The position numbers and the translations under genes were made by a program. From Chrysophaeum taylorii (taxonomy: Eukaryota > Sar > Pelagophyceae > Pelagomonadales > Pelagomonadaceae), in contig JAQMWT010000003.1 in the NCBI GenBank assembly GCA_029834535.1, positions 178,830 to 242,829 on the forward strand: a stretch of 64,000 nt of DNA. Reading direction: 5' to 3'. A model generated the notes under the pieces. That model made no database searches. It was not told the DNA's origin and saw only the letters and a list, made by a program, of their open reading frames with translations. How positions within the stretch are numbered: the first letter of the stretch is position 1; every line of letters starts with the position of its first letter. Below are positions 40,648-63,302 of this stretch, piece by piece.

Positions 40648-40743
40648 TTAAGACCGTAGTCAAGTTTCATCGTTTGCTACTGGTGAAAAAGTGTGAAAAA
40701 AAAAAAAGGCAACCAACAACGCGCAAAACGCAACTCGAAAACG

Positions 40744-43690
40744 ATGGCGACTCAAAACCCACAAGTCCCGAGTCTGGAAGTAGCGACGCAATTCGCTACA
40801 CAACAAGCTCTCATTCAACGGTTCCAAGCCGATTTATTTGCTAAGTTCGCCGCTGATTGCCAACGGCGCAAAGCTAATTTCTTGGATCAACTCGCCGCTG
40901 ATCAAGCTATTGGCAAAGCCAGAATCGCCGCCGATTACGCTGATCTCAAAGCTAAAATCACTGCCGCAATCGAAGCTCGATGTGAGCAACTTGATCCAGA
41001 CGTGCAACTCGATCAAGACGAGCAACTTGAACAAGCTCCCCAACCAGCTGTTCATACGGCAACTCCCCTCAAGCACAAGCAAACTTCTCCCGAAGTCGCG
41101 ACCCAAGACCCGATCATCTCGATGGTCACCCCCCCTCATGCCGACAACTCCACCGGATGTCAAACACCCCACGGCAAAGTCTCAGACCCCACTGCCTTCC
41201 CTCCGGACCCAGGCATAGCCAAGGTTACTCCACAACCTGGCACACCCCACATTCACGAGGACATTCCACCTTGTTCGAATATCGCACCAGCAATTTTGAA
41301 CACACCACCACCAATAAACATTACTTCCTTCACCCCAACCCCACGGGAGCCTCCACCTCCTTCACTGGAGCCTAACTCCCCACTATCGGCGACTCCCGCT
41401 ACACCACATGTACACGTTCCCCAACATCCTCGTCAACCCGCTCGCCGCACCAGACACCTCCTTGATGATCATGCCATATACGGCCATGACGGCCCCGGCA
41501 CCTTCATCCCTGACCAAGCCCCCACCGCTGCTCAAGCTCATGCCGCCCCACTGTCGGATTCCCTTGTCCGATACCCATCATCTTCCGCTCAGGACTTTCA
41601 TCTCCATCCACAAGACCATGCCACCTACGGCCACAACGGCCCCGGGCACATCCATTTCTACCACAGCTCCTTCCGCGGCTCAAGTTCCTGCCGCCCAACC
41701 ATCGCACCCTCATGACAGACCTTCAACACCTTTCGAAAGTCGCTGTTCCCCCGATTTGCACCTCCACCCGCGTGACTATGCATTCCACGACTACCACCAT
41801 TCCTCCGTCCCCACTCAAGCACCCACCCACCTCCTTTATCCAAGTTCCAATGCACCTCCGTCTGAGCTCCAACGCGAGTTGGCCACAACTACGGCTGCAT
41901 TCCGCTCCCAAACCGCCGAACTGGCCGCAACTAAGGCCATGCTCCTTCAGAAGGATGACGCTTTGTCCTCCACAGCCAACAAACTCACCACCACCGACGC
42001 CGCCCTGGCTTTCGCCACTGCCTAGCTCGCCATCCAAGCCGACGAACTGGTCTCCACCTAAGCCGGACACCATCTCACCCACACCCAGCTCAAGGCACTC
42101 GAAACTGCCCACGCTGACATCCGCAGCTCCCACTTTGAAACCAACGCCGTCCTCCAAACCATTCTTACCTCATTGGATGCCACTCACCCCACCCAAGATG
42201 CTCCATCGCATCTTCCACCTCCTTTCCCCATCCACAACCAACCTTCATCCCCTTCCGAACCAACCTCCAATGCCTCTCCCCCGATTCTCCCCGAGTATCA
42301 TCACCACCTCCACGGATGCCCCGGATCTGGTTCTCCTGGTTCACCACCCACTCTGTCTCTCTGTTCTCCACATCCCGCCATCTCTGGCCCCTCCTCCTCT
42401 GCCAAATCACTCTTCGCCTCTCTGGCACCCCCTGAACCCCTTTGCACCCGCTCGCCTTATCAGCCCCCTGGTTCATTCCAACTCGACAACCTCCCCGCGT
42501 CCGAGTTGCGAGGGCGTACATTCAACACCTGCGACCGTACCCCTACCACCAGCGAAGATCACCACGTGCAAAGTCCCACCAAGAATCAAGACCACCCACA
42601 TCAAGAGTCGACAAGTTCCGAACTATCGAAAGACAGCTCTTTGCCAGATGGTCATGCTCACCATCATGCTGCCGAGACATGCATAAGGGCTTCTTCTCTC
42701 TTCGGGCACAACGGCCCAGGAAGCAATCTTGTCGAAGAAAGACCAAGCCATCTCGTTCCCACTTTCAACAAGTCAAAGATCAAGACACCTCGAGATGTTC
42801 CCGAGTATTACGCCTACATCGACTATGGCAACCACATCCAAGAATCTCAAGCTCCGCCGTATTCCATGCACCGGGCACAAGAGCCGCAGGCCACTGACAA
42901 CATCCCCTCTGATTCAGTCCCCTGGTATGATGCATACAACGAAGTAGCAAGACCCACTTCACAAGTCTCGAAGATGGTCTCCTCGACCATTCCAGATCAG
43001 CCGCCTCATCCAAGCACCACCAATGACCCCGCAATGCCGAATCCACAAGGACAAGACACGCTGTCAACGGTCCCACGGTCACCATACTCGCAGGCACTCA
43101 CCGCACCTGCAGGTATCAGCTCAGATTCACAAGGCATTCCCGCCTTATTCGATATCTCTCGATCAGCAGCTCCCGATCACTTCGAAGCTGGCTCCACCTC
43201 GCCGCCTCCCCTCCTCGAAGACAGGCGCGCACTGCCGCTCACCGGCGCTTGCTGCTGCACCCACCATCCACCTTCTCGGTTGGATGCACTGGATGACACT
43301 CCTCAGCAGGTTGCATGGACCCATCTGCGACCGCCATGTAACGATTTGATGGATGTCTTCGCACGAGCACCAGTCGCAACACCTGATCACCCGCTCCCTA
43401 ACCTTCGGTCAGAGGACGCACTCCTTTCGACCACCGATCCTTATGTCTCACCGCGACCAAGCCTCTGGAAAGCTTTCCCCATGGCTGCAGTAACAGACAC
43501 AGATTTCAAGAGTTCTGAACGACCCGATCAGCCGCAAACTATGCACAATTCCATTGCGACCACTTCGGTCCTGTGTGTCCCCTTGCATAGCATTCTTCTG
43601 GACGCCACACGCTCGCGCTGCCTCCTGAAAATCGACGTTGCGCTCTCAGGAACATTCTCCGCGCACTATGCACAGACTCGCTTCAACTGA
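40744..43690 (+). pseudogene. gag-like ORF block of an unidentified element, frameshifted
   Basis: Three overlapping or adjacent frames run 40744-41715, 41408-42025 and 42173-43690. The first starts with a helical, Ala/Gln/Asp-rich N-terminus (FAADCQRRKANFLDQLAADQ), followed by Pro/His-rich sequence with diverged ~150-bp internal repeats (YGHDGPGTF, YGHNGPGHI, and later FGHNGPGSN). The second frame ends in another Ala/Thr-rich coiled-coil stretch. The third is Pro/Ser/His-rich and ends in CLLKIDVALSGTF. A coiled-coil start plus a disordered Pro-rich body resembles non-autonomous element structural proteins, but no enzyme motif is present. Stops at 42024 and 42061 confirm decay. Confidence 0.45.
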
Positions 43691-47872: not shown

Positions 47873-47959
47873 TGTGGCGGAAACTCCTGCTTCTTAGGGC
47901 TTACCCTACTTCTTAGTGCTTACCCTCCCTCCTTTTCCTTACCCTTTCCTGTGTCGCTG

Positions 47960-48896
47960 CCACCGCATACACCACCAGCAACCCCAGATTCTTCGCCGAA
48001 CGATTGCCGCTAACGTAACGAACCTCCGCCCAGGTGATGATCGATATCTGCAAGACTGCAGCGAATGCAAGCGCTGTCAATCGCATGTCAGCTTCAGTCA
48101 TAAGAACGCTTCCTGGTCACAGGATGAACTGGCCTACGCTCATGGCCAACATCTCCACATGGACGTATCCTACCCGAGAATCAGTAAATGCTATGGTGGA
48201 TTCCGCTACATAATGCACTTCGTGTGTGTTATTTCGGCACACAAACGGGTATACTTCCTGAGGAAAATGGGCGCGCAGGACGTTCTTGCTGGCATCCTCT
48301 ACGTGTTCAACGTGATTAAGGTCGAATTCGATTTAAGTGTGAAAATCATCTCATCTGATGCTTTTTCCACATTCCGCTCCGTACCTTTCCACCCGCTCAA
48401 GGTGCAACTTGGTATCCAGTTTCAAATCATTGGTCGCCACCTACACCAGCGGAACTTAGGGGAAAACATTATCAAAGAAAATACTCGAGGCACTGTCGTT
48501 CGCCTCCTTAATCTGCGCAGCGTCCGCATTGAAGGAAGGCCAATTAGCGCCGAGTATTACCACCCGTTTGCTCTGCTGCATAAGATCCAAGCAGACAATC
48601 AGCGCTCTCATGGATTGCCCTCGCGCACTCACATGCCCTGCACCGTCCCCAGGCGCATTATGTCATCTACGGCACCACTCTTGAAGCTCCTCCCCTTTGG
48701 CGAACCTGTCACATTCGTATACCCGCAAAGCCAAAACTGGAACCCTCCAGCGTCTCCGCCTCTTATTTTCATAGCAACAACAATCTACCGAAGCTTCCTG
48801 GCACGGACCGATTTATCCGCGATGTTCACAGCTCTATCCTGCTTGTACATCAAGGGCGATATGAAAAAGCGTCACCTCGAACGACTTCCACGTTGA
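47960..48896 (+). pseudogene. copia C integrase region
   Basis: The frame contains a zinc-binding remnant (CSECKRCQSH), then HLHMDVSYPRISKCYGGFRY with the first catalytic Asp, IISSDAFSTFR with the second, and ENIIKENTRGTVV as a likely position of the Glu. PFGEPVTFVYPQ, typical of the C-terminal part of copia integrases, follows. This enzyme would insert the cDNA into the host genome. The frame ends at a stop near 48896, well before RT, and several frames intervene, so pol is broken. Confidence 0.75.
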
Positions 48897-50800
48897 TGCG
48901 GACATGGTAGTCAATCGCAACAAGGAAATTGAGCGCATTAAAGCACAGGCGCAGTTTCCAGCAGAAGCACAGCAAGAGGACCCGCTCCCAGCTAAAAGCG
49001 ATCAGTCAATGCCGGAACTTAGACAGGAGTCGCAAAATGAGGGCGAGACTCATGATAACAACCATGAGACGAACCCGATGACGAAGACAAGAATAAGGAA
49101 CCAGATCAAACCTCTGCTACTGGTACAAGTCCCGTCAGCGACGAGACACCTGAACAGGACTTTTCGTTTCTCAACAGGCCACCTCCGCCGGATGGAGCAT
49201 TCCGATGCCCAAGCGAAAAGATCGCTTAGAGGTTGTTCTCGACGATTCAGGTTTTACTCCAGTCTTTGTGCATCGCAACCAGAGTGACAAACTCAAGGCA
49301 GATCTCAAAGACGAGCGCGGATTCCGCATTCCCAAAGATCAACTCTACATAGTGAAACGTGTTGACGATGGACAACTATTCACCAGACGCATTATCGCAT
49401 CAGAATATGGTCGCACTGGAAATACCAGCAGGAGCAACCCACGGCTCGCGCCACAGCCAGCATGTCTAGCACGTTGATGTTTCTTATCGGTGTCAGCGCT
49501 CAGCATCAAAGCCATGCCGCCAGCATCGCATCTGATCTCAACATTAGAAGGGACGCTAAGCCGCCAGATCATGTCCCGATAGGATGCCACCTCGCAAACA
49601 CCACCCAAGACTATGGTATCATTGGCGGCACTGCACTGGATCTGCAGAGAGAAACCGACGCAGAACTCGCGCACGTCAACTTCCCAAAGAACCCGTACCG
49701 TTCGTCTGTTCTGGTCGATCACCTGGACAACGACAATTCTGTTCTCGAGAATTATGTATGCCATGACGAATTGTCACCGGCAGAGTACTATGCGCGTCAA
49801 TGGAACCAAGAATTCTGTTGTATGAGTTCCTCTCTCTTATGGGACATCTCAGCGCATCAGCACTACCACCTAGCTTCTCGTCACAGACACGCCTTCATGC
49901 ATGATTCTGGCGAACTCGGACACCTTTTTTTAAGTCAAAGTGATCGGAATCAAGACATTCTCCAAGAAGTTATGGACTATGACTTACAGTGCATCGACCA
50001 TGTAGTGTTACAGCTCGTGACTGCTGATGACATTGTCTATGAGCCCAAGAAGATTGTCGAACTCAAAGGACTCAGCGAAGAGGATAAGCTCAAGCACATT
50101 GCTACGATTCGCAAGGAAATTGAAGGACTGTGCTCCAACGGCGTCTTTAAGCTAGAACCTTTACTGCGAGACCGTTCGTCTATCTCGACGAAACTCGAAC
50201 TGAAGGTCAAGTATTATTGCCGACGGCACCCCAGACCGCTACAAGGCTCGTCTAGTTGTCCGAGGTTTCTTGGCACGCGTCAGCATCGACTTTTATGCCA
50301 CATCTTCACCAACCGCGATGCTCGCCACTAACCGGTTATTGCTCGCCATCGCTGTGAAGCACAAGCTCCCCGTTGCGCACGCGGACATTCCCCAGGCCTT
50401 CATCCAATCGGCACTTGATCGCCCGGTATGGATCGACTTACCTCGTGGGATTCGTGTCTCACAGAACCTTGTCCAGCAGATACAGAAGAACCACCCAGAG
50501 TCCAAGTTAGCTCTCCGACTCGTCAAGGCTCTCTATGGTCTCAAACAGTCAGCTTTGTTATGGAACATTAAGCTTGACTCGTTTCTTCGACAACACGAGT
50601 TTGAACGCTCACAAGTCGACACCCGCCTATATGTCAGCTGGGATCGATCTACTAACAGATGGGTTCTCCTATCCGTCTCCGTCGATGATCTTTTGATCAC
50701 TGGAACCAACACCGCCAAAATCACATCTCTTCGCTCCACCTTGGAGAAAGAATATGGCAAAGGTACTTGGCACGACAATATTCGATCTTTTATTGGTATC
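48897..50800 (+). pseudogene. copia C reverse transcriptase region, frameshifted
   Basis: Frames at 49205-49477 and 49462-50331 carry the spacer, the pre-RT segment (VELKGLSEEDKLKHIATIRK) and the first RT block. The frame at 50270-50809 carries ATNRLLLAIAVKHKLPVAH, the catalytic DIPQAFIQSALD, LYGLKQSALLWN and SVDDLLITG (active site). The line is then cut by the SINE-like insertion at 50801 and resumes at 51175 (FLGIDVHYNVSAGHLTM). Frameshifts near 50200-50270 show it is not functional. Confidence 0.82.
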
Positions 50801-51166
50801 TTACCCTGATCGTCGACTGCGGTTGCGATGGAGGACGGTGCCTCATGAATCCTGAGCCTTGCGAGGGCATCCGCCCTCCCGGCGTAGGTTGGCACCTATT
50901 CGCCTCCCGGGCGGGCCGGTTGGCAGCCGGAACGTTCGCAGTGGGACGGGGTATGGCCGGGGGGCGAAGACGGTAGGTTATCGACGAGTTGGTTGTCAGT
51001 CACATCGCGGTCTCCTCGTCGCATGGCGGCAAGCTTGATGGTCACTCTCCGCCGACCGACCTTTCGGCGCTCCTCGTCTACAGGCCCGTGATTCCGGACT
51101 GGCTCCTGTTGGTCCGGCCTGGCTCCCATGCTCGGGAGAGGTCTGAAGTTAGTTTTAGTTAGTTTC
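50801..51166 (+). mobile_element. SINE-like retroposon copy S4, full-length, 8-bp TSD
   Basis: The 366-bp element starts TTACCCTGATCGTCG and ends AGTTTTAGTTAGTTTC. TTGGTATC flanks it at 50793-50800 and 51167-51174. Removing the element and one repeat rejoins copia C RT in the conserved F(I/L)GI block, so the ends are exact. It is the best copy of the family in the window. It has no ORF and no convincing pol III box could be assigned by eye. Confidence 0.9.
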
Positions 51167-51174
51167 TTGGTATC

Positions 51175-51386
51175 GACGTCCATTATAATGTCTCCGCTGG
51201 TCACCTCACTATGAATGTAGCAGCAAAGATAAACAAGATGCTCGCCGAGCATAAACTTAACCTCCGTAGTTCTGACGTCCCTTACTCTGAAATACTCACT
51301 CAGAAACCTTCTGCTAAGTTTCTTTCCGACTTGGCTCCTACCTTGGAACTATTACCCGAGCATTTTCCCCATTACTGTGGCACTAG
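51175..51386 (+). pseudogene. copia C pol, RT-RNase H connection fragment
   Basis: It resumes at LGIDVHYNVSAGHLTMNVAAK, continues through the linker and is interrupted at HYCGT by the solo LTR. The sequence after the solo LTR (SVTCRPDITTLHNKC) continues the usual copia order. Confidence 0.8.
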
Positions 51387-51701
51387 TGCAGAGAAATCTG
51401 CTAACTCCTACCCTTATTCCGTCCGTTGAGAACGCGATCTCTTCCTTACCCTTCTTCTTTCCGTTTCTACAGTAAAATAGTCCTCTTGGTCTGTGCTCAA
51501 GCTCATCATCATGGTCTAGCGCGTCCCGCAGGTACGTAGTAATTACATGTTACACTGATGTGTTGCTGTGTATCGTATGTCGTGTACCGAGGCTAGGGGG
51601 ACCCCTACCTTTAGTCCCCTGAAACCTACCTTGCCAGACTCACGCGGTGAGACGGGATGGTCTCTCAGTGATATAACCACTGCCTAGCGGAATTCTCTGC
51701 A
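51387..51701 (+). repeat. solo LTR of the copia A/B family, 5-bp TSD
   Basis: The 315-bp LTR starts TGCAGAGAAATC and ends AATTCTCTGCA, so TG...CA and a 9-10 bp terminal inverted repeat. ACTAG flanks it at 51382-51386 and 51702-51706. It aligns over its length with the copia B LTR at 8986. A solo LTR arises when the two LTRs of an insertion recombine, so a copia A/B element once sat inside copia C. Confidence 0.92.
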
Positions 51702-52140
51702 ACTAGTATCTACTTGTCTGTCACATGCCGTCCTGATATCACAACTCTGCACAACAAATGCTGCAAAGGCATGCACAACCCTGAGCAATCCCATCTCCTA
51801 CATTTATACGTTTTACTTCGCTATTTGAAGGGTACTCCGAATGATTCTCTCGACTATTCATCCGACAGCCCCTCTATTACGCCCTTTATTCAGCATCTTA
51901 TCAGCAACTACCCCGAATTGCATCATCTTAGTTCGCCTTTTATTTGTTTTACTGATGCCAGTTTCGCTGACAATTCTGGCCCTCGCTTACGATCTCATTC
52001 TGGTGCATGTATTTTCGTATTTGGCAACCTCGTACTCTGGTCTAGCAAACGCCAAACTCTTACTGTCAAAAGCACCATGAAGCCGAACTCATCGCCGCTA
52101 GCGCAGCCGCTGATGAATGCCAATGGTTTCATAATGTCTT
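51702..52140 (+). pseudogene. copia C RNase H, first part
   Basis: The frame contains SVTCRPDITTLHNKC, GMHNP, VLLRYLKGT, CFTDASFADNSGPRLRSHSG (with the RNase H Asp) and LVLWSSKRQTLT, all standard for copia RNase H. A frame change precedes AELIAASAAADECQWFHNV, after which the gypsy element begins at 52141. Confidence 0.82.
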
Positions 52141-52469
52141 TGTGGCAGTAACGCCCATTCCCCCCACTTGCCTGCCTACCACCCGACTTACCCTGATTGT
52201 TGCCCTGGTATTGACCTTGCACTTATGGGGGGGTGTCATCTTGACACCCTCACCTGCGCTTCCGCTGAACCCAATGTACCGGGCATTTGTATTGCTTTCT
52301 TGCTGTCTTCTTGATATTACCCTCATTTGATTGTCGATTTCGTGATGGCGTAAGGTATTACGCTGAGATCGGGCGTGTGGTGGTTTCACCCGCGGTTCGG
52401 GTTGGGAGAAAGGGTTGTTTAGGCCCCTGGTCCGGCCAGGAGGGGCGGGTATCTGAGAAAACCACTACA
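52141..52469 (+). repeat. gypsy 5' LTR (329 bp)
   Basis: It begins TGTGGCAGTAACGCCC and ends AAACCACTACA. It aligns with 61315-61641 throughout, for example CACTTATGGGGGGGTGTCAT and TTTCGTGATGGCGTAAGGTA. Confidence 0.93.
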
Positions 52470-52470
52470 G

Positions 52471-52487
52471 TGGTCTCAGAAACGGGA
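52471..52487 (+). other. gypsy primer binding site candidate
   Basis: TGGTCTCAGAAACGGGA begins one base after the LTR. A TGG start is expected for pairing to a tRNA 3' CCA end. The implied tRNA 3' end is TCCCGTTTCTGAGACCA; I cannot name that tRNA from sequence alone. Confidence 0.6.
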
Positions 52488-52893
52488 ATCGATAGTCCAA
52501 CTCCCGGACTATCGATCTCCTGTTTCTCGGCGGCGAGTCGGTTCGTAACGGTCGAGTGAGTGCGAAGCCGACGCATTTGTGGGTGAAGATCCAGAGGATC
52601 ACGGGTACCGCCGCGGGGTTCATTTTACGTGATTCGGATCGAACGGGGAGCGGAGTCACTGCGACTCATTGAGGCAAACATCGTAAGACATACAAGGCAA
52701 AGACAGAGTAAGACCTAACTTAGCTCGCGCGAGGCAGACCACCTCCCTGACGGCGAGCGACAGCACCGGGAAGGCCGTCCATAGTCTTCACGCGCAAGGC
52801 GAATACTTCCGTAAGTCCAGCGCACCGGTACAGCGCGCAGTCAGACGGCTGCCGGCAATTGTCGTCTGACGAAAAGAGTGCAACAAACGAGTT

Positions 52894-54981
52894 GTGAGCG
52901 TCCGGATTAAGCCTATTATCCGGGCAAAGCGCGGTCATGGCAGAGAGGCCAATGACAGAACGACCGCAGTGGTTTCGGGACACACAGGAGCGTCTGCAAC
53001 GATTCAGTGCAGGGACTCCATTTGCGTCTATTGGAAGAACACCATTCAGTACGCCTTTCAACGGCCGGAAGCCGAGGAAAGCGGCATCGAAAGAGAGGCA
53101 AGATCATCTGATAGCCTCGACAGCCCCCCAAGCGCGGTTATCCTTCCGGATCCACGCGCCGGCGAAGGGGGAGCTACGGTCGCGCCAGACGCAACTTCAA
53201 GACCGGGTGAGCCGACGGACCCGTATGCACGACCCTACGAACGTACGATGAATACTACGGAGTCATCTCGAGCGGAACCCGGACCGTTTACGGCGATGCG
53301 TGGACCAGAGGAGAGTGCACCTCCTAGGCCACCATCCGCGAATACGAGAGCGACAGATTTTCGCGTGGGTATCGACCCCGAGGTTCTGCAGACCAGCGCC
53401 GAACGATTCGAGATGTACCAGTCGCAGATCGAGCAAGTCATACGTGAAGTTGAAAGCACCCGCCGCGACGCGCAACAACAACGCTCAGAAGTGGAGCGGC
53501 AGCGGATCGACAACGATCGACTTCGACGAATGGTGGAGGACTCCATGCGGGCGCATGCTCGAGAGGCACGGCCAACCTCTCCGGATGCTACTCGTGTTAC
53601 GCCCGACGATGATGACGCTGTATCGGCACTGACCGATGATCAGCCACCGCGAAGTCGACCGGAGCCTACCCCGCACAATCATACTGATCCCGTTTCGGCG
53701 CGTCTTCGTGACGAAGAAGAGATACTTCATGTCAAGAAGGGAGCTGCTGGTATGACACGTATCACGTTTTCGAATCTCACTGGGCAAATTACTAAGGATC
53801 GTGATGAGGTGGACGCGTGGAGGATGTAATTGCGGCGTATGATCGAAGGCAGGATTGACAAACCCTCAATAGCGACGAACGTGATTGGAGGCGAGTATCA
53901 ACTCGCCCCTATGGAAGCTTATCGCAAATGGGAAGCCGAACGGCCGCAGATGTGGAAACAATACAAGGAAGGAACCATCGCGTTGAAAGAGTTGCGCCAG
54001 CATGATGAGGACTCTCTGGATGCTATGCAAGAGGCGACGAGGCTTCCTTGTCCACCTCGGGCTACGGTTGAGGAGCTTGAACGTGAGTGGTTCAATCTAC
54101 GGCAAGGGAATTTGTCATTGAATAAGTATATCGCGCGATGGGTGCAGAAATTCGGCCAGTGGAGAGCAATGTCAGGTCGCGATACTGATCCGGCTGCGTT
54201 CCGTTCGCACTTCATTGCTGGGCTCAATTCTGAGCGCTCGCGGACGAGCGTCGAACTTGCTCAGGCCTCACCGCATATGAAAGCATCTACTCTCACTCTC
54301 AACGATGTTATTCAATTGACCATCCAGATTTCCAAGATTCTGGAAGCCAACCCTACTGCCAACATCGAAGAGGCGATTAAGAAGGAGAAGGGAAAGGAGC
54401 GCGCACCACGGATGAGGAGAGAGCAGCAGCAACAGAGGCAGCAGTTGCAGCCAATCCAACGGGTTGGTTATGTTACTGACTCGGGAATTGGAACCTGGCT
54501 ACCACAGGGGATAGATAACCATACGCGTCAAGCAATTACGACGTGCCTCAGTTGCGGCCGGCATGGTAGTTTTAACCACGACAACGGTGTGTGTCCTGTG
54601 CCGGACAATCCCTCGAGGAAGAGGCGTGCTGCTCAGACGTTGACGAATGCGGGTTTTCCAGCAACGCCAGAAGGACAGGAGCAATACCGACGGACGCTTG
54701 TAGCTGCAGCAGGACAGGCTTCAGTGACTCAGCTAGCGGCCGCGCGTTGTGCAACAGCCGCAGGTGGTCTACACAGCAGCACAGGTGCCAGGTGCAGGTC
54801 AACAGCAGCTGGTTGCAGGCACTTAACAGCGTTTGGTTGCAGGCACTCAACAGCAGGTGGTCCGAAGGCAGCCCGCAGTGCAGCGGACCGCTCAGACCTC
54901 GGTGCGCCTGGAGGATCTGACTTCGGCTCTCAACACGATGAACCTGATTCGTCAGGCACAGCAGACGGCTCCACCGGTTAG
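52894..54981 (+). pseudogene. gypsy gag with coiled coil, gag core and zinc-knuckle-like motif; in-frame stop
   Basis: The frame runs from about 52894. It has a disordered N-terminus, a coiled coil (YQSQIEQVIREVESTRRDAQ, continuing QQQRSEVERQRIDNDRLRRM), then the retrotransposon gag core (VEELEREWFNLRQGNLSLNK, YIARWVQKFGQWRAM) and a Cys/His motif (CLSCGRHGSFNHDNGVCP). A TAA at 53827-53829 interrupts it in the same frame between VDAWRM and LRRMIEGRI, with no frame change. It is either one nonsense mutation or a translational control point; mutation is more likely because pol is broken too. Gag would form the particle shell. Confidence 0.8.
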
Positions 54982-55096
54982 AGGGCAACAGTCTCAGAGA
55001 GCGAACCCTAGCCAGCGCAATGATGGTGTCGCCGCTCAGTGGCTTGAAGTGCTTGGCGAAGATCAGGATGACACTAAGTGAGCGGACTACTGCACT

Positions 55097-57781
55097 GTGC
55101 AGTATTCTGAGCTCATGGAGGGCAACGTGTATGACGATGACGATGTTGGGGGCGATGATGATAGCTTCTCTGCAGAAGGCTATTCCCGTGGTGACCCCAT
55201 GGAACCTCCTTCCTTTTTGGTCATCACTGAAGATGCATGGGTGGAGGAGCAGGAGCAAAGTACCGAAGTGACTGGAGTTGCATCTAGAGCTCCCTCGGAA
55301 GACGAAGATAATCGTGACGAACTGGGGTATACGATTGTTCGTGGGGGACAAGATACCTTGGTTGCTATAGAGATAGTGCCACCGAGGGACGACTGCGCCG
55401 AGCGTTATGCCGCTCACCCTTCCATCTCTTCGGATTTCGAGAGTTTCTGCCCTCAGACTGCGTTGAATACCACTCAGGATCCCGACCATCGTGAAAATAA
55501 AGCCGTAAGGTACGATGGCACGAGATCCGCCTCTTTGACGTATGTGCCTGTGGCTGTCTCTTCGCTAGATGGTTCGAAATATTCCATCATCGCTGCCGGT
55601 TTGGATGGCATGGCTGATTCCCCCTACATCGATCACCGCTTGTATCGCAAACTTGATCGTGACGGCGAAATCATCTATCGTCAGCCACTCCCTACTATTC
55701 GTACTCTAAATGGATCAGGAGGTTCGGGAGCTGCTATTCGAGAATGGGTCATTCTCCGGATCTCCTTGGTGCCGACGACATCCATGCTGCTCATGTTCTT
55801 CGTTGGTCAAACGAATGGGCAGTTACTATTAGGAGCTCGAGAATTACGACTCTTGGGTACGATTTTGGATTATGCGACAGAGAGAGCTATTTTTCGGCGT
55901 TCTGAAGTGACCATTGGAGTTCTCAAGAATCGGACTTCCGCCTCGCCACAAGACCAGCATGGAATTGTCCTTTACAATGATGCATTCGATGCGACTCCGC
56001 AGGTAGTGCAGATGTTCCCGACAGCTAAGCTTGCTGTGCAATACGGAAATATCCAAACTTGGACGCCAGTTGGTAAACCGTGGAGTTATGACAGTCTACT
56101 GCGCTCTATTCGTATCAGAGCGAGTCACCATCACGTTCCTCCCGGTGATCAGACTGCTGAAAAAGCGGAAGACCAACTTAAATGTCCTGCAGACGAGGAA
56201 GATATCATCCCTCATTTCGCTTACGTGACGAGTACTCGATTTCTTCTTCCAAGCCAACCGTACTTCTTGGAGATGGAGTGCGATGTGCCGCTGGAAAAGG
56301 GTCACGTATTCCGACCTTATCGGTCACTCCTCCCAGATCTCCGCCTTGTACCTGGCTCCTATTCATCGTATTGCGCTGACGAGCCCAACGAAGTTCATGT
56401 GGCTGCGGAGCACATTGGTGACGAACCCATTGGTATCGACCCCGAAGTCCCGGTGGTCGAAGGCGAGATCATGCCGCATGAAGGATGTGTCAACATGCAG
56501 CTAGAAGCCACTGATGACGTGTGTCATGCCACTCTTACGGCTGCTGTTGACGACGACGAAGTCGAGGAGGATGTCTTGAGTGACAGACCTCCTCCTCAGC
56601 CACCTCCAGATGAAGAAGTGAAAAAAACACCAGAAATGAAGATGGAGGCGACTGTTAAGGAGCTGCTATCTAAGCACGCCTCCTTGGTTTGGATACCCAC
56701 CACCTACACCTTCGTCGTCGTCTACTTTGCTGGCGCTGGAGGATCAACATTGGGTATCCGGCGATGCAATGAGCTATATGGCAGTTCATTTCGCATTGTC
56801 CTGGCTTTGGATGCTTGTCCTCAAGCCCGAGCCACCTTTGAACTCAATTTTCCGAAGATTCCCTATGTTTTGCATGAGTTGGGGAAATCTCATCGTCGTA
56901 CATACGACTTGGTGTTGTCGTATTTACACTCAGATTTTTGGAAGCACTCTTATTTTCACGCCAGTCCGCCGTGTATCTATGGATCGACTGCCAATTTGCA
57001 CTACAGGGACGCACGCAAGGGCGCTACTATTACTTCTTGGGTCCTGCGTCATTTCCGCAACGCACCTTATGTGATTGGACGATGGACGCTCCAGCAGGAA
57101 CCATCAGTGATCCCTTTGTGCACACCAATTTTATTGCCGCGTGTTGATTTCTATAGTATCACGCCAGAGCTGCTGTGCTCGCGCACGCGCCTACTTGCTT
57201 GCAATGTTCGCTTGGAACTGCCGTTATTATCGCGTGTACCACCGAATTTACGGGACCGTTTTGGCCCAGCGTTGGGATTTACAGGGGAAATTATGACCGT
57301 TCCTGCTACGTGGCAATGGGGTGCGACAGTTTCCGAGACAGTAGCTATGAAGATGCTTGGCAGTATGGTGCCACCCGCGACTATGACGCGGATTGCGCTA
57401 GCAGTGCACAATGCGTTTGAACCTTCACTTCGAAATTTGGGTAAGTTGCGGAATATTGCGACGACTACGCTAGCCCAACCTGATCACCATATTCTACGGT
57501 TTTCACCTTTTGCTGTAGAGTCGCGCATTCCAACGCTCGACCCTGCCACTCGAAGTGTATCATGGATTGCGCCCGATGAACTCTACTCTTCTGCGAGTCC
57601 TGCACCATCCGCTGCTGCACCGTCGCCACTGCTGTTATGCAGAGCAACCATGTCGATAACCAGCCCTCCGCAACTGCGGAAGAAGAAGGCACCGCGAAAG
57701 AGCGACCCGCGTATTTCAATAAGTACGACGTTCCGTGGGCGGACGCGCCTCACGACGAACATGGTCAACCTTTACCGGTGA
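55097..57781 (+). CDS. gypsy pol N-terminal polyprotein: retropepsin-like domain plus C5-cytosine methyltransferase-like domain
   Basis: An open frame of 894 codons. After an acidic start, residues ~150-265 resemble a retroviral-type protease, with LLLGARELRLLGTILDY typical of its C-terminal half; the catalytic D-S/T-G is replaced by DGM in GLDGMADSPYID. Residues ~534-778 resemble a DNA cytosine-C5 methyltransferase: motif I YFAGAGGSTLGIRRCN (SAM), motif II region LALDACPQARATFELNFPKI, motif IV SPPC with the nucleophile Cys (56963-56974), a weak motif VI region (LQQEPS where ENV is usual), CSRTRLLAC like motif VIII, and VSETVAMKMLGSMVPPATMT like motif X with Ser for the usual Asn. RT follows in another frame. 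Methylation by an element enzyme is inference. The lost ENV and protease residues argue that this copy is inactive. Confidence 0.75.
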   Translation: MQYSELMEGNVYDDDDVGGDDDSFSAEGYSRGDPMEPPSFLVITEDAWVEEQEQSTEVTGVASRAPSEDEDNRDELGYTIVRGGQDTLVAIEIVPPRDDCAERYAAHPSISSDFESFCPQTALNTTQDPDHRENKAVRYDGTRSASLTYVPVAVSSLDGSKYSIIAAGLDGMADSPYIDHRLYRKLDRDGEIIYRQPLPTIRTLNGSGGSGAAIREWVILRISLVPTTSMLLMFFVGQTNGQLLLGARELRLLGTILDYATERAIFRRSEVTIGVLKNRTSASPQDQHGIVLYNDAFDATPQVVQMFPTAKLAVQYGNIQTWTPVGKPWSYDSLLRSIRIRASHHHVPPGDQTAEKAEDQLKCPADEEDIIPHFAYVTSTRFLLPSQPYFLEMECDVPLEKGHVFRPYRSLLPDLRLVPGSYSSYCADEPNEVHVAAEHIGDEPIGIDPEVPVVEGEIMPHEGCVNMQLEATDDVCHATLTAAVDDDEVEEDVLSDRPPPQPPPDEEVKKTPEMKMEATVKELLSKHASLVWIPTTYTFVVVYFAGAGGSTLGIRRCNELYGSSFRIVLALDACPQARATFELNFPKIPYVLHELGKSHRRTYDLVLSYLHSDFWKHSYFHASPPCIYGSTANLHYRDARKGATITSWVLRHFRNAPYVIGRWTLQQEPSVIPLCTPILLPRVDFYSITPELLCSRTRLLACNVRLELPLLSRVPPNLRDRFGPALGFTGEIMTVPATWQWGATVSETVAMKMLGSMVPPATMTRIALAVHNAFEPSLRNLGKLRNIATTTLAQPDHHILRFSPFAVESRIPTLDPATRSVSWIAPDELYSSASPAPSAAAPSPLLLCRATMSITSPPQLRKKKAPRKSDPRISISTTFRGRTRLTTNMVNLYR

Positions 57782-59797
57782 TGCCTCCTCATTTAGCGGG
57801 TCAGGAGAGCATGCAGGTCATCCCTCCGACCGTCGCGCAGGTCGAAGAGGTGATGACTGAGTTGGGTATTACAGAGCATCCTGCTTTAGATAATGACGAG
57901 AAGCTGATGATGAATCATTTAATCTCGTATTCGTGGGCATTTTCGATGATGTGATGAGACCTGTTGATTCACCTGAAGTGACGCTCCGGTTCAAAGAAGA
58001 GAACCCGACTCCCGTCAAACTCTCGCCATATCGGTTGTCGAAAGAAAAGATTGAATGTTGGCGGATGCAGATTGAAGCGTGGACCCGAGACGGAGTTATT
58101 CGTCCCGCGAATTCTCCATGGGGGTTCCCTATTTTGATGTTGCCTAAGAAAGGTGCTGAGCCTGGCACTTCCAATGCTTACAGAGCAGCTGTCGACCTAC
58201 GGCGCCTCAATGCATTGCTCAAGGATGATAGCTGGCCGAGTGTGAGCATGGCTGACGCGTTGATGTTTCTCATCGACAAGTTTTGTCGTTCCAGTTTGGA
58301 TATTCGTTGGGGCTATCACAATTTACGATTGTCGCTGGATGCACAAGATGTGGTCACCTTCACTAGTCCTCTGGGAGCGTACAGCTACATGCGTCTACCT
58401 TTGGGAGTCAAACCAGCCGGATGTTTGTTTGCAAGCAGTTGAACACTGACTTGTCGCAATGGCTATATCGTGATCTCGTGGCATATATCGACGATATTCT
58501 CGCCGGTCACGCAGATACAAAGAATCACTTGCAGTGCCTTTTGCAAGTTATTCCCCATCTCGCCTTGAAGGGGTACAGCGCCAAGATCAAGAAGATTCAT
58601 TTTATGCAAGAAGTCATTGAGTTTTTGGGTCATTTATCTACCCCGAACGGACTTCTTCCATCACCAAGGTCTTTAGAAGCCATCAGACACATGCCAATTC
58701 CTGGCACTTTGTCGGATGCTGACCCTAAGAAGCAAGTGCGATTTTTCCTTGGAATGGGGAGTTTTTGCCGGCGTTATGTAAGGAATTTTGCGAAAGTTGC
58801 AGAGCCATTAAGACAACTGACGTTGCCGGACGTGAAATTCAAGTGGACGAAAGAGTGTCAGGAAGCTTGGGATGCCATCATCGAGGCTATTGTCACTTCG
58901 AAGGGCGTCTACCATCCTGATTGCTCGTTACCTTTTTACATTCGAACTGATGCTTCCGCGCATGGGCTGGGTGTTTACCTATTTCAAAAGGTACCAGTCG
59001 TTGACGACGATGGAAGAGAAAGAATCGAAGAGAGAGTTATCGAGAACTGGAGTCGAACCGTGCCTAAGTCGACGAGGAAGTACGATCCTCGGCGCTTGGT
59101 ACTCCTCGCAGTACTCTCTGCTCTCGAAAATTTCCGATTTTATATCGAAGGTCATCAGATGAAGTTAGAGACGGATCATCGTAACTTAACGTTTCTTCGG
59201 GATTCGAATCATACGTCTGGACAGTTAGCACGATGGGCTATGCGGCTTGCTGCATTCGACCGGGAGCTCGGATACAAGCCTGGAAGCTCCCCTGGCATGC
59301 GTATTCCGGATTGTCTGTCGCGCAACCCTATCGACAAATTGATCGAGAAAGATGAAGACGGGGAACCGATCAATGAAGCTTTTTTGATTTTCCAAGAAAT
59401 CCCCACCGATGTCCCTGGCACAGCTTGCTTCACCTTCTCTTCGGTGACGATGCCTATGCTGACGGACAGCGGACCCACCGCGGCTATGGTAGCAGTTAGT
59501 ACGCGACAGAACGTACAACCACATCAATTCTCATACGAGTCTGAGCCAATTGACTCCGTCGAACGTCTCCCTTTTGCGGATCAAGCGGAGGATGAGATCA
59601 CTCTCGATGAGATAGCGAAAGAACAAGCTGAGGATGAAACATGCAAGCGCATCAGACGAAAGCTCGACTCTGAACAGAAAGATCAAGACGAGCAGTCATC
59701 ATACCATATGAGGTTGATGACAACGTGTTGTATAAGGTCGATGATTCAGCTTCTCAACGTCTTATTGTGGTCCCTCAGTCTATGCAAAAGCGTGTGA
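57637..59797 (+). pseudogene. gypsy reverse transcriptase and RNase H, frameshifted
   Basis: Three overlapping frames follow (57637-57954, 57933-58442, 58421-59797). They contain YRLSKEKIECWRMQIEAWTR, then GVIRPANSPWGFPILMLPKK, YRAAVDLRRLNAL, SLDIRWGYHNLRL (first catalytic Asp), PLGAYSYMRLPLGVKPAG, YIDDILAGH (active site, about 58481-58500), then the RNase H part [35 protein letters not shown] and LETDHRNLTFL. The order and motifs are those of Ty3/gypsy pol. Each frame change is a likely indel. Confidence 0.88.
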
Positions 59798-60890
59798 TCG
59801 CCATGCATCACCGAGGCTTGTTCGGAGGCCATGTAGGACGAGACTCCACAGCGAATCAAATCTTAGAACGGTATTGTGGCCAAACGTCTCATCATCCGTT
59901 AATGAGTTCGTCAATGCCTGCATTATTTGCTAGAAGATTCGATCCACCATGCCTAGGCGCCATGGCTTGCTCTGTCAACCGAATCGCGTCGGAGATTGCT
60001 ATGTCATAGGTATGGATTTGATTGGACCTCTGCGAGGCGCTGACCTGTACACGTACATACTCGCAATGTACGATGCAGCATCACATTTCTTGAAATTAGC
60101 TCTGATCAACACGAAGCAGGATTATTCGATTTTGAACGCGTTTGTGGAAAAGATTTTACTTGAGGGATGTCTACCGCGGTGCATAGTCACGGATAATGGA
60201 AATGAGTTCGCGAACAGGTTATTTCGCACGTTTGTTCGTCAATTCAACGTACGTTATCGTACTACCCTTCCGTATCACCCTCAGAGTAATCATACTGAGC
60301 GTGTCAATCGATTCATCAAAGCTTTCTTGCGAGCTGCGATCGATGAACAGCGTCAGCCAGACTGGTCGAATTTCCTCCCGTATGTGTCATTCATGTATAA
60401 TAGGATGTACATTCCGGGAACGAAGATTTCACCTTTCATGATGCGTACTGGCAAGCAACCCCTGTTACCACCCGATTACAATCTTTTGAGTGAACAGCGT
60501 GATCTACCGCAATCACGTCATCAGATTTTGGTGGACTTTAAGAACAAGTTTGAATTTTATAGTCGACTCGTTACACGAGCTCACTGCAGAGCACAGGAGC
60601 CAAAAACTCAACTATGATGCCCACCAAATTGACATCCAGTTTCCCCCAGGTGATTATGTTCTGCGTTTCGTGCCTCAGACGCGCCACAAGCTACGGCCCA
60701 TTTGGCGCGGGCCGAACATAGTTACCAGATAGATCTCTCCCGTCGTTTACGAAATTCAAGACGTCAACGACGATGATGCTGAATCGGTTGTAGTATCTGT
60801 ACAACAGATTGTGCCTTTGAAAGTGCCAACCATCGACACTTCTTCCGCCCCCCTGCATTTACCTTCGGACCGCGACCGGTTCAAACATGT
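59725..60890 (+). pseudogene. gypsy integrase, frameshifted
   Basis: The frame 59725-60009 holds part of the H2C2 zinc domain (HHRGLFGGHVGRDST). The frame 59949-60617 holds the catalytic core: VIGMDLIGPLRGADLYTYIL (first Asp), IVTDNGNEFANRLF (second Asp) and LPYHPQSNHTERVNRFIKAF (Glu). The frame 60490-60732 holds the C-terminal SH3-like part (FPPGDYVLRF, KLRPIWRGPNIV), which meets a stop at 60730. There is no chromodomain. Confidence 0.87.
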
Positions 60891-61296
60891 TAAGTTCGTG
60901 ATTTTCAGGGTGAAAGACGATCAACGCGTGGAAGAAGCGTATCTATGTTGCCGAAGTCTACGAAGAATATGACCACGACAATGATACAGTTGCGCTTCAC
61001 TATTATACCGATTTGGGACCGCGCGATGATCCTCGCGTCTTTGATCCTACTAAGCCTCTGGCTGAGCGACGCTTAAGACCAGAATATAAAGATGCGGACG
61101 GAGGTAGCTTCACACGTTTACGACCAAACATGGAGGGCTGTGAACCCTGTGTGACTGATTTCGCCCGGATGAAATCGATGTCCTCGTCACTAACTTCGGT
61201 CTCCACAGCAACAAAGTTCCTGCGATGTAGCTGAACGACTTATCGTACCATTCGTGAGCGTGACCTTCGTCACCCTTGAAGTCGAGGACGACTTCA

Positions 61297-61314
61297 TCTC
61301 AAGTAGGGGGCTCC
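61297..61314 (+). other. gypsy polypurine tract candidate
   Basis: AAGTAGGGGGCTCC lies directly upstream of the 3' LTR. The purine run AAGTAGGGGG, except its T, is where plus-strand synthesis would be primed. Confidence 0.55.
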
Positions 61315-61641
61315 TGTGGCAGTACGCCCATTCCCCCCACTTGCCTGCTTGCCACCTGACTACCCTGATTGCTGCCCTGGTACTGGACCTTGCACTTATG
61401 GGGGGGTGTCATCTCGACACCCTCACCTGCGCTTCCGCTGAACCCATGTACCGGGCATTTGTATTGCTTCTTGCTGTCTTCTTGAATTATTACCCTCATT
61501 GATTGTCCGATTTCGTGATGGCGTAAGGTATACGCTGAGAGATCGGGCGTGTGGTGGTTTCACCCACGGTTCGGGTTGGGAGAAGTCTGTTGAGGCCCCT
61601 GGTCCGGCAGGAGGGGGCGGGTATCTGAGAAAACCACTACA
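61315..61641 (+). repeat. gypsy 3' LTR (327 bp)
   Basis: It begins TGTGGCAGTACGCCC and ends AAACCACTACA. Compared with the 5' LTR it has many small indels (for example GTAACGCCC versus GTACGCCC), so the element is not recent. Confidence 0.93.
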
Positions 61642-61738
61642 TCTTCTCTTCTCATCGTCATCCGTTTTTTGCGTGATCATGCTCCCGCTATCCCCCTTGC
61701 TTATTGACAACGCAAGCGCATTACACGTCGCTAATCAC
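61642..61738 (+). pseudogene. copia C RNase H, second part
   Basis: It resumes after the gypsy TSD and contains LIDNASALHVANH, the copia 'DN.SA..(I/L)A.N' block with a catalytic Asp. An in-frame TGA near 61671 and frame changes show decay. The hAT-like element starts at 61739. Confidence 0.75.
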
Positions 61739-62830
61739 TACCGAACCTAAATACCGGTATCAAAAGTCAGGGTTTAGTTTTAGTACTTTAGTACATGTTT
61801 TAAACCGGTTTAAAACCGATTTAACTTGGATTTTACCGGTTTAAACATCTTCTCGCGTCCAGTTGACATCGAAACTCTCAGAAAACGCTGCAGGACGCCC
61901 GTTTGGTTCAGGGAGCAAAATCTTTCTCTTCTGTGCCACACGCTCGCTGCCTCCAGTTGAAGTTGCACACGCTGGTGACCGTTATGGTGACCATGTTCAT
62001 GGGTGAGGGGCGGGGAGGGGGAGGACGGCCCAGGAGTCGGTGAGCGACTACGTGATCACAACGCCAAGACGACGGCATGTTCGAATGGAGATGTGCGGCA
62101 CGCGGCTGCACGCACGCACGCACGCAAAAAGTTCAGCCAACTCAATGGTTTGAGCACATCGTCCTGGATTGCAATCACACGCCCGATGGCGTTAAGTGCA
62201 CGCTCGCGAGCAAGTCGTCAGCTAAGAATATCTCGGGGTGTGTATGGGCCACGAATAAGCGGCCCGCCGTTGTGTCCACGACCTTCGCGCCTCGAAGCGA
62301 CATCGTCCGCGCCTTCGTTGTTGCCGAAGACTGGGACGGCTCCGTCGCAAGTCGTGTCGAAGCAAGCTACTAGAGTCACCGAAGTCACTGATAGGTGTGA
62401 TACGCGCCGTGCCAATCTAATCAACGAGAAGATCACCAAATTCATGGTTGGTTGCGCTCTGCCTTTCAGCATCGTCAACACCTCTTTCTCCATCGATATG
62501 ATCAGGGCGCTCAACGCGCCTACGTCAAGCACTTGCCCAAGTCCGAGGCCTTTCGGCGCACGTGGGCGCCACGGCTTTTGGAAGAGACCGTACATAATAT
62601 CAACAAGATGTGGTTCGCCACCGGCAACTTCGCTCGAGCCATTGGGTTCGACGGCCTAGAAGACCAAGCCAAGGCCGGCACTCAATTCGGGGTTAGCACG
62701 AAGAGTGTACATGGTGAGCTGACGTGGCGGTACGAAAACCTAAACCCCCAAATTTGTGTGTTGTTTTTTACCGGAAAAAAAACAAAAAACCAGGTTTAAA
62801 CTACCCCTGTAAAAACCGAGTGGTACGGTA
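61739..62830 (+). mobile_element. hAT-like DNA transposon, 1.09 kb, 8-bp TSD
   Basis: CTAATCAC flanks it at 61731-61738 and 62831-62838. Removing the element rejoins copia C RNase H at VANH|PNQ. Terminal inverted repeats are short: TACCGAACC at the left and TACCGTACC (reverse complement) at the right, followed by related CCGGTTT-type sequence on both sides. An 8-bp duplication and a BED/transposase fragment inside point to hAT. The coding part is too short and broken to be autonomous. Confidence 0.82.
62077..62760 (+). pseudogene. hAT-type transposase N-terminal fragment with BED-like zinc finger
   Basis: A first frame (62077-62373) has a Cys2-His-Cys arrangement like a BED finger (CAARGCTHARTQ, then QPTQWFEHIVLDCNH). 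A second (to 62515) has LINEKITKFMVGCALPFSIV and SFSIDMIRALN, matching the hAT block 'I..F....(I/L)PF..V....F..(M/L)...L'. A third from 62515 has YVKHLPKSEAFRRTWAPRLL. These are in the right order for a hAT transposase N-terminal half. The catalytic core and dimerisation domain are absent. Confidence 0.65.
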
Positions 62831-62838
62831 CTAATCAC

Positions 62839-63050
62839 CCTAATCAGTGCTCCCTCTCGACATCAATTTGCGAAAGAATTTCGGATTCGAGACTACCAGG
62901 CCAACTCGGTCACTCGTCCCCTCTGGTGTCCTACTCACGACCAGATCGCTGATCATTTTTCAAAACTTCTTCCCCGCATCTTGTTCCGCAAGTTCAAGAA
63001 AGCCGACGGTCTTCATTTCGCCGGGATGGTTCGCTCGGTTGGGCAGAACG
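62839..63050 (+). pseudogene. copia C RNase H, C-terminal part
   Basis: After a frame change near 62860 the sequence reads SRHQFAKEFRIRDYQAN, then LWCPTHDQIADHFSKLLPR and LFRKFKKADGLHF. These match the end of copia pol ('RHI.IR...', 'PT.DQ.ADI.TK.LPR..F......G'). This proves that the sequence beyond the hAT-like element belongs to copia C. Confidence 0.82.
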
Positions 63051-63213
63051 AAACGAAACGCGACGGGACAGTCGATTGTTCGTGGACCACACGTCCGCGG
63101 CCTGCGACGCTTTTGCACGACCTCGCATAAAGACCGCGCGCAGTGGCGGTACACCATCAACAAGTCCGTCCTCGTCCCTCGCCTCTGCCCCAACTGCGTG
63201 ATTTTCCTCTGTG

Positions 63214-63302
63214 ATTCCGTACCGGCTCCTGCCGGTCCGGCCTGGCTCCCATGCTCGGGAGAGGTCTGAAGTTAGTTAGTTAGTTTAGTTAGTTTCATTC
63301 CA
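63214..63302 (+). mobile_element. SINE-like retroposon copy S5, strongly 5'-truncated, 8-bp TSD
   Basis: Only the last ~90 bp of the family unit is present (GGCTCCCATGCTCGGGAGAG, then the AGTT tail). CCTCTGTG flanks it at 63206-63213 and 63303-63310. It inserted at the border between copia C internal sequence and its 3' LTR. Confidence 0.8.

Follow-up and report, generated by a model that had tools for sequence, protein, structure and literature searches.

Ty3/gypsy families and a Ty1/copia lineage of Chrysophaeum taylorii with a C5-cytosine methyltransferase-like domain in Pol

Retrotransposons bearing a cytosine methyltransferase have been described in a small number of algae, namely LINE and DIRS elements in Symbiodinium and an LTR gypsy element with a DNMT3 in Klebsormidium nitens (PMC5890265). 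This paper and the others named here are cited from excerpts. Some DNMT3 members have also been placed in LTR Copia and DIRS elements (PMC12344493), although "Copia" may be a slip, since the statement is referenced to the 2018 paper, in which section 9 has Gypsy (PMC5890265). Stramenopiles are named among the hosts of gypsy and DIRS elements encoding DAM or DCM enzymes, for which antiviral roles have been speculated (PMC6338049), and an N4/N6-type enzyme has been described in a DNA transposon (PMC12477816). C5 methyltransferases in LTR elements did not occur in the excerpts of PMC9998398 and PMC12477816, and the literature as excerpted showed no gypsy element with EQE at motif VI and no confirmed copia example. 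Methyltransferase-bearing retrotransposons are already known; what appears to be new in C. taylorii is the presence of several gypsy families with EQE and of a copia lineage.

The window, that is the whole stretch of DNA analysed, comprises 64,000 nt of the C. taylorii genome of 70.8 Mb in 697 contigs. It contains a Ty3/gypsy element of 9.5 kb (52141-61641) with ordinary direct LTRs (329 and 327 bp; 8 substitutions over 319 aligned bases) and a 4-bp target site duplication (TSD). The class was assigned from Pfam matches to RVT_1, RT_RNaseH, Integrase_H2C2 and rve. The features typical of Ty3/gypsy were found, LTRs with a TSD and the order gag-PR-RT-RH-IN, with gag and PR recognised by weak match or reading only. 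The element is inserted in a Ty1/copia element, as the match of the related copia copy L067 to the window breaks off at 52140 and resumes at the right end of the gypsy element. The features are, in window coordinates:

47954-52140, plus strand: interrupted copia of the methyltransferase-copia lineage, integrase to RNase H (comparison with L067)
52137-52140, no strand: left TSD, TCTT (L067 runs across the insertion point)
52141-52469, plus strand: 5' LTR, TG...CA (comparison with the 3' LTR)
52870-53829, plus strand: first part of a gag-like frame, closed by an in-frame stop (open reading frames)
53830-54981, plus strand: gag frame (weak Retrotrans_gag match, E=0.0018, below cut-off)
55082-57781, plus strand: open frame of 899 aa with protease-like region, linker, methyltransferase and linker (list of open reading frames, Pfam)
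55480-55930, plus strand: retropepsin-like region, limits approximate (read from the sequence; constraint in relatives)
56690-57478, plus strand: C5-cytosine methyltransferase-like domain with motifs I, II, IV, altered VI, VIII and X (PF00145, alignment of copies)
56726-56758, plus strand: motif I, FAGAGGSTLGI (translation, alignment of copies)
56972-56974, plus strand: motif IV nucleophile Cys of SPPC (Cys in 33/33 family-1 copies examined)
57092-57094, plus strand: motif VI position, Gln codon (Glu in 30/33 family-1 copies)
57280-57286, plus strand: site of an internal deletion of 48 residues relative to copy L006, in the target-recognition/motif IX part (comparison of copies)
57897-58442, plus strand: first part of the reverse transcriptase (RVT_1, E=0.011 alone)
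58367-59797, plus strand: end of the reverse transcriptase (YIDD) and RNase H (Pfam)
59934-60617, plus strand: integrase core, rve (Pfam)
61315-61641, plus strand: 3' LTR (LTR comparison)
61642-61645, no strand: right TSD, TCTT (flank comparison)
61642-63015, plus strand: remaining 3' pieces of the interrupted copia, as non-continuous matches (comparison with L067)

The sequence-only reading had defined LTRs and a TSD and had placed a methyltransferase-like domain between a protease-like region and RT; both statements were borne out, the order PR-DNMT-RT being correct because RT, RNase H and integrase all lie downstream of the domain. The retropepsin-like region gave no match in the Pfam search and has LDGMADS at 55601 in place of the retropepsin D(S/T)G. 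The protease-like regions of families 1 and 3 (frames of the window copy, L044 and L068) have LDGMADS or VDGMADV in common, a conserved non-standard active-site motif. The reading frame of the window element shifts four times between gag and integrase, and gag is split by an in-frame stop; some of these frame changes could be assembly errors. Judged from its sequence, the window element is a dead, decayed copy of a high-copy lineage. Elsewhere in the window, a 67-nt direct repeat with 94% identity (51088-51154 and 63211-63277, 12.1 kb apart) lies outside the gypsy LTRs, and long overlapping proline-rich open frames occupy 40687-43690, the two longest of them without a Pfam match. An Rfam search of the window gave no match.

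The 899-aa frame carries FAGAGGSTLGI from 56726, LALDACPQA and SPPC, as had been read before. The proposal of a C5-cytosine methyltransferase-like domain inside a gypsy polyprotein had been made to depend on a significant profile match, and the window domain, when cut out of the frame, was matched by PF00145 at E=1e-5 (25.6 bits against a cut-off of 22); against the whole frame the score was slightly below the cut-off (E=2e-4, 21.3 bits). Matches to relatives were stronger. PF00145 matched L006 at E=7.6e-9, and in both L006 and L007 it did so in two stretches, of which the stronger one was C-terminal and covered motifs IX-X. In alignment A3, 8 of the 12 rows matched, the best at 1.6e-9, and a PHROG DNA methyltransferase matched L044 at 4e-12. 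L069, a member of family 4, had no PF00145 match when searched singly. With the NCBIfam dcm model (TIGR00675) the window domain scored far below the cut-off, and the NCBIfam scores in general fell far short of the curated one. Among PDB chains there was no significant match to the window domain, the best methyltransferase (E=0.87) ranking below a chance match, and a single-sequence structure model of the window copy was uninformative (mean pLDDT 33.6). A 16-row alignment that included five phage enzymes and DNMT2-like and DNMT5-like proteins of the host aligned the Glu of the gypsy EQE with the Glu of ENV, SPPC with motif IV and R-x-R with motif VIII. By profile and motif comparison, the domain in the gypsy Pol is homologous to C5-cytosine methyltransferases.

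A search of the genome with the family-1 domain gave 230 matching pieces among the best candidates scored, a number of pieces and not of copies, as many copies yield two. Long open frames are present in the family-1 copies L044 and L045, and L045 has the order DNMT, RT, RNase H, integrase. An RT search showed 54 copies at 64-66% identity. From these, L068 (family 3) and L069 (family 4) were picked, and in both the domain is located before RT. A first look at family 3 gave 1018 candidates, and all 131 places scored reached at least 80% identity; family 4 was represented by 23 places at 85% identity or more, some of them partial, together with one small extra piece. A listed DNMT match was found upstream of RT, on the same strand and 1.3-1.5 kb away, in 35/54 RT copies. 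Of the remaining 19, six were retrieved, and each of them contained a DNMT piece, which in one was only the end of the domain and in several was broken. The domain is 36-49% identical among the three gypsy families, and RT of the sister families is about 65% identical. On these counts, the methyltransferase-like domain is a fixed part of Pol between protease and RT in at least three gypsy families. The identical frame-shifted stretch between motifs VI and VIII in the family-1 copies L053 and L054 may mean that a damaged copy was copied on.

In C5 methyltransferases the Cys of motif IV is the nucleophile and motif VI contributes a further catalytic position. The motifs were scored in 24 domains of families 1, 3 and 4, consisting of 20 fetched places chosen without stop codons and four references. 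The F, G and G of motif I and the Asp of motif II were present in 24/24 domains, the motif IV Cys in 23, the motif VI Glu, within EQE, in 23, and the two Arg of the R-x-R of motif VIII in 24 and 23. The motif X Asn was absent, being replaced by Ser (18), Ala (5) or Phe (1), and only a short stretch separates motif VI from motif VIII. Among 33 family-1 copies the motif IV Cys was kept in all, and the motif VI position was Glu in 30, Gln in two (one of them the window copy) and Asp in one. ENV itself was not found in the gypsy families, in which EQE stands instead and the Glu alone is kept. The idea that motif VI had been lost throughout the family, with GRW at its place, was rejected, as the sister families show W-x-(L/I)-E-Q-E. 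As aligned, the expected catalytic and SAM-site residues are conserved in the gypsy domains, with EQE replacing ENV.

These data separate what is decay in the window copy from what is characteristic of the families. The copy had been taken for a decayed representative of better-kept relatives, and its frame changes, its deletion and its Glu-to-Gln change, all relative to fuller copies, agree with that. Its domain has 283 residues against 331 in most copies compared, and the 48 missing residues and the Gln in motif VI indicate damage to a catalytic position as well as to the target-recognition/motif IX part. The altered ENV had been attributed to decay as well, which holds for the Gln, particular to this copy and one other of the 33, but not for the rest, since EQE with its Glu kept is mainly a family trait. 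The altered motif X Asn, also ascribed to decay, proved to be a family trait instead, with Ser or Ala in 23/24 gypsy domains. The reading had also been made to depend on other copies in the genome with the domain between protease and RT, and many do have it before RT, with EQE instead of ENV.

Selection was estimated as dN/dS by the Nei-Gojobori method. Between L006 and L045, for which the DNMT comparison covered 309 codons at dS 1.61, the ratios by region were 0.276 before PR, 0.092 in PR, 0.222 in the linker, 0.064 in DNMT, 0.366 in the second linker and 0.036 in RT. The deep family-1 lineages (dS 0.9-2.0) gave 0.06-0.17, the highest value belonging to a copy with three stops, and the median over 406 pairs of the 33 family-1 copies with dS >0.05 was 0.19. 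For family 3 against 3b the median of 42 pairs was 0.063 at a median dS of 2.07, near saturation, and between the three gypsy families dS was saturated. Certain close pairs had ratios of 0.5-0.9, as expected of decaying insertions. These estimates show the domain to be under strong purifying selection, tighter than the protease-like region and the linkers.

Taking these results together, we consider, with a probability of about 0.6, that the window contains a dead copy of a high-copy gypsy lineage whose Pol includes a selected C5 methyltransferase-like domain acting on the replication product of the element. The domain would be produced as part of Pol and enclosed with RT in the virus-like particle, where it would methylate cytosines in what the element itself has replicated, most probably its new cDNA, either ahead of integration or during it. 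The cDNA would then carry a self-like mark, or the methylation would shape chromatin at the new insertion. The cDNA would suit as substrate because the domain stands beside RT in Pol, an argument made in PMC5890265 for the DIRS elements, for which methylation of cDNA was put forward as a hypothesis.

Against methylation of the element's own cDNA stands that neither CpG composition nor CpG mutation pointed clearly to a lasting CpG methylation, which would be visible as CpG loss. The CpG observed/expected ratio was 1.05-1.13 in the element loci against 1.27 in window positions 1-40000, which is lower but not depleted, and CpG transitions were hardly in excess (pairs among 29 loci: C-to-T 0.043 at CG and 0.040 at CT; G-to-A 0.038 at CG and 0.048 at GG). 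A methylase directed at a different target is a further possibility. The lack of a clear CpG signature would also fit a pseudo-methyltransferase kept as a non-catalytic, nucleic-acid-binding or assembly part of Pol, and EQE for ENV, a motif X without Asn and the short VI-VIII stretch agree with this, since with them activity may be weak, altered or lost. However, the Cys, the Glu, the motif I glycines, the motif II Asp and the motif VIII Arg are nearly invariant at 36-49% identity, and a binding role alone would not demand such conservation, so that we hold this explanation to be unlikely, although it deserves to be kept in mind.

Somewhat less probable still is that the domain methylates RNA, either the element RNA or a primer tRNA, and not DNA. 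Such a substrate was suggested as possible for the LINE type (PMC5890265) and would likewise leave no clear CpG signature. When the gypsy profile is compared with the PDB, DNMT2 chains rank second and third, but at E=0.18 and 0.2 they are not significant and are limited to motifs I-II, and a bacterial enzyme ranks above them as the best match (E=0.084, also not significant). Nor does the tree from the 16-row alignment group the domain with the DNMT2-like protein of the host, though long branches and open deep forks leave the gypsy domain unplaced in it. The host genes compared are L031:1498-2577 and L032:1006-3537, which from their motifs and class features we take to be DNMT2-like and DNMT5-like, respectively; a chlorophyll-binding-protein match adjoins the former. 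Finally, a chance resemblance of motifs in a fast-evolving spacer, which might be suggested by a window score that barely exceeds the Pfam cut-off, a whole-frame score that narrowly misses it and the lack of a significant PDB match, is ruled out for practical purposes by the two-ended PF00145 matches in relatives (L006, A3), by the tighter constraint on the domain than on the flanking linkers and by its motif-by-motif alignment with known enzymes.

Further relatives of the gypsy domain were not found in the collections searched. In a set of 5.8 billion proteins there were none for the domain region of the L006 polyprotein, for the L006 domain or for A3 (E limits 10, 1 and 0.01), and viral contigs gave none for profiles A1 or A2. 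Compared with the PDB up to E=1, profiles A1 and A3 picked up no DNMT3 chain, although hardly any enzyme matched them at all; by these profiles the gypsy domain is not recognisably DNMT3-like.

A second lineage came from a PF00145 search of the genome, blind to introns, which gave 57 places, eight of which were fetched. Two of the eight are the host genes L031 and L032, beside which the host may have further DNMTs. The other six (L033-L038) form one lineage, all matched by tblastn and with frames read for L033, L034 and L036. Its copia class was read from one whole copy, L047 with the adjoining L067, in which a protease motif (read), the methyltransferase, an integrase (weak rve, E=0.0048) and RVT_2 (7e-40) follow one another in the PR-IN-RT order of Ty1/copia. 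The copia element interrupted in the window belongs to this lineage, but the part with its protease and methyltransferase did not turn up within the 64-kb window. The copia domain yielded 79 pieces in the genome, matched PF00145 at 1.1e-9 (L034) and a phage methyltransferase at E=2e-6, and had a median dN/dS of 0.17 (45 pairs of 10 copies). In 16 copies, the motif IV Cys was kept in 15, the motif VI Glu and Asn each in 15 and the motif II Glu in 14, and motif I was unusual; ENV is thus mostly intact, unlike the EQE of gypsy.

Profile comparison detected no similarity between gypsy and copia domains, but the test is insensitive here, as the profiles gave nothing significant even against enzymes of the host itself, and the tree, with its long branches and open deep forks, is compatible with a common as well as a separate origin. 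The independent capture proposed in the sequence-only reading, like an effect on hiding copies or on host silencing, is conjectural. Two separate captures, by gypsy and by copia, are likely because both belong to different superfamilies. Tentatively, and at somewhat less than even odds, two unrelated LTR superfamilies in one photosynthetic eukaryote separately took up a C5 methyltransferase downstream of the protease and kept it under selection, with motif VI rebuilt as EQE in gypsy. If so, the rebuilt EQE may mean a changed chemistry or substrate, and the pair would show that methylating its own replication product is a repeatable strategy of retrotransposons. The domain matters because hosts commonly silence such elements by cytosine methylation, and elements with a writer enzyme of their own would turn this weapon round. 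With several hundred places matched in 70.8 Mb, three gypsy families under measurable selective constraint and a copia lineage, the genome offers natural material for studying domain function and for learning whether EQE can do the work of ENV.

Compared with bacterial and phage C5 methyltransferases (PF00145, phrog_116), the gypsy domain is alike in motifs I, II, IV and VIII, and its motif I aligns with those of 8yf3 and an Aphanizomenon phage enzyme; it differs in being embedded in Pol and in having EQE. The similarity of family 1 to the phage enzyme (E=1e-2) and to 8yf3 (E=0.29) is too weak to claim descent. KnitGypsy-Dnmt3 of K. nitens shares the Gypsy-type Pol, the in-frame C5 methyltransferase and the presence of several copies, and its reported Ka/Ks of <0.2, like the value of about 0.06 between deep lineages here, indicates purifying selection (PMC5890265). 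However, KnitGypsy-Dnmt3 is DNMT3-related, with key residues conserved and repeats arranged as in DIRS elements (PMC5890265), whereas the C. taylorii elements have direct LTRs, a 4-bp TSD and EQE, comprise at least three gypsy families and are accompanied by a copia lineage. SymbioLINE-Dnmt and SymbioDIRS-Dnmt3 of Symbiodinium are similar in having many copies per genome but belong to the LINE and DIRS types and to neither gypsy nor copia; SymbioDIRS-Dnmt3 methylates CG in assays (PMC5890265). The LTR Copia elements mentioned in PMC12344493, if correctly named there, carry DNMT3 members, an affinity that the C. taylorii copia domain may not share.
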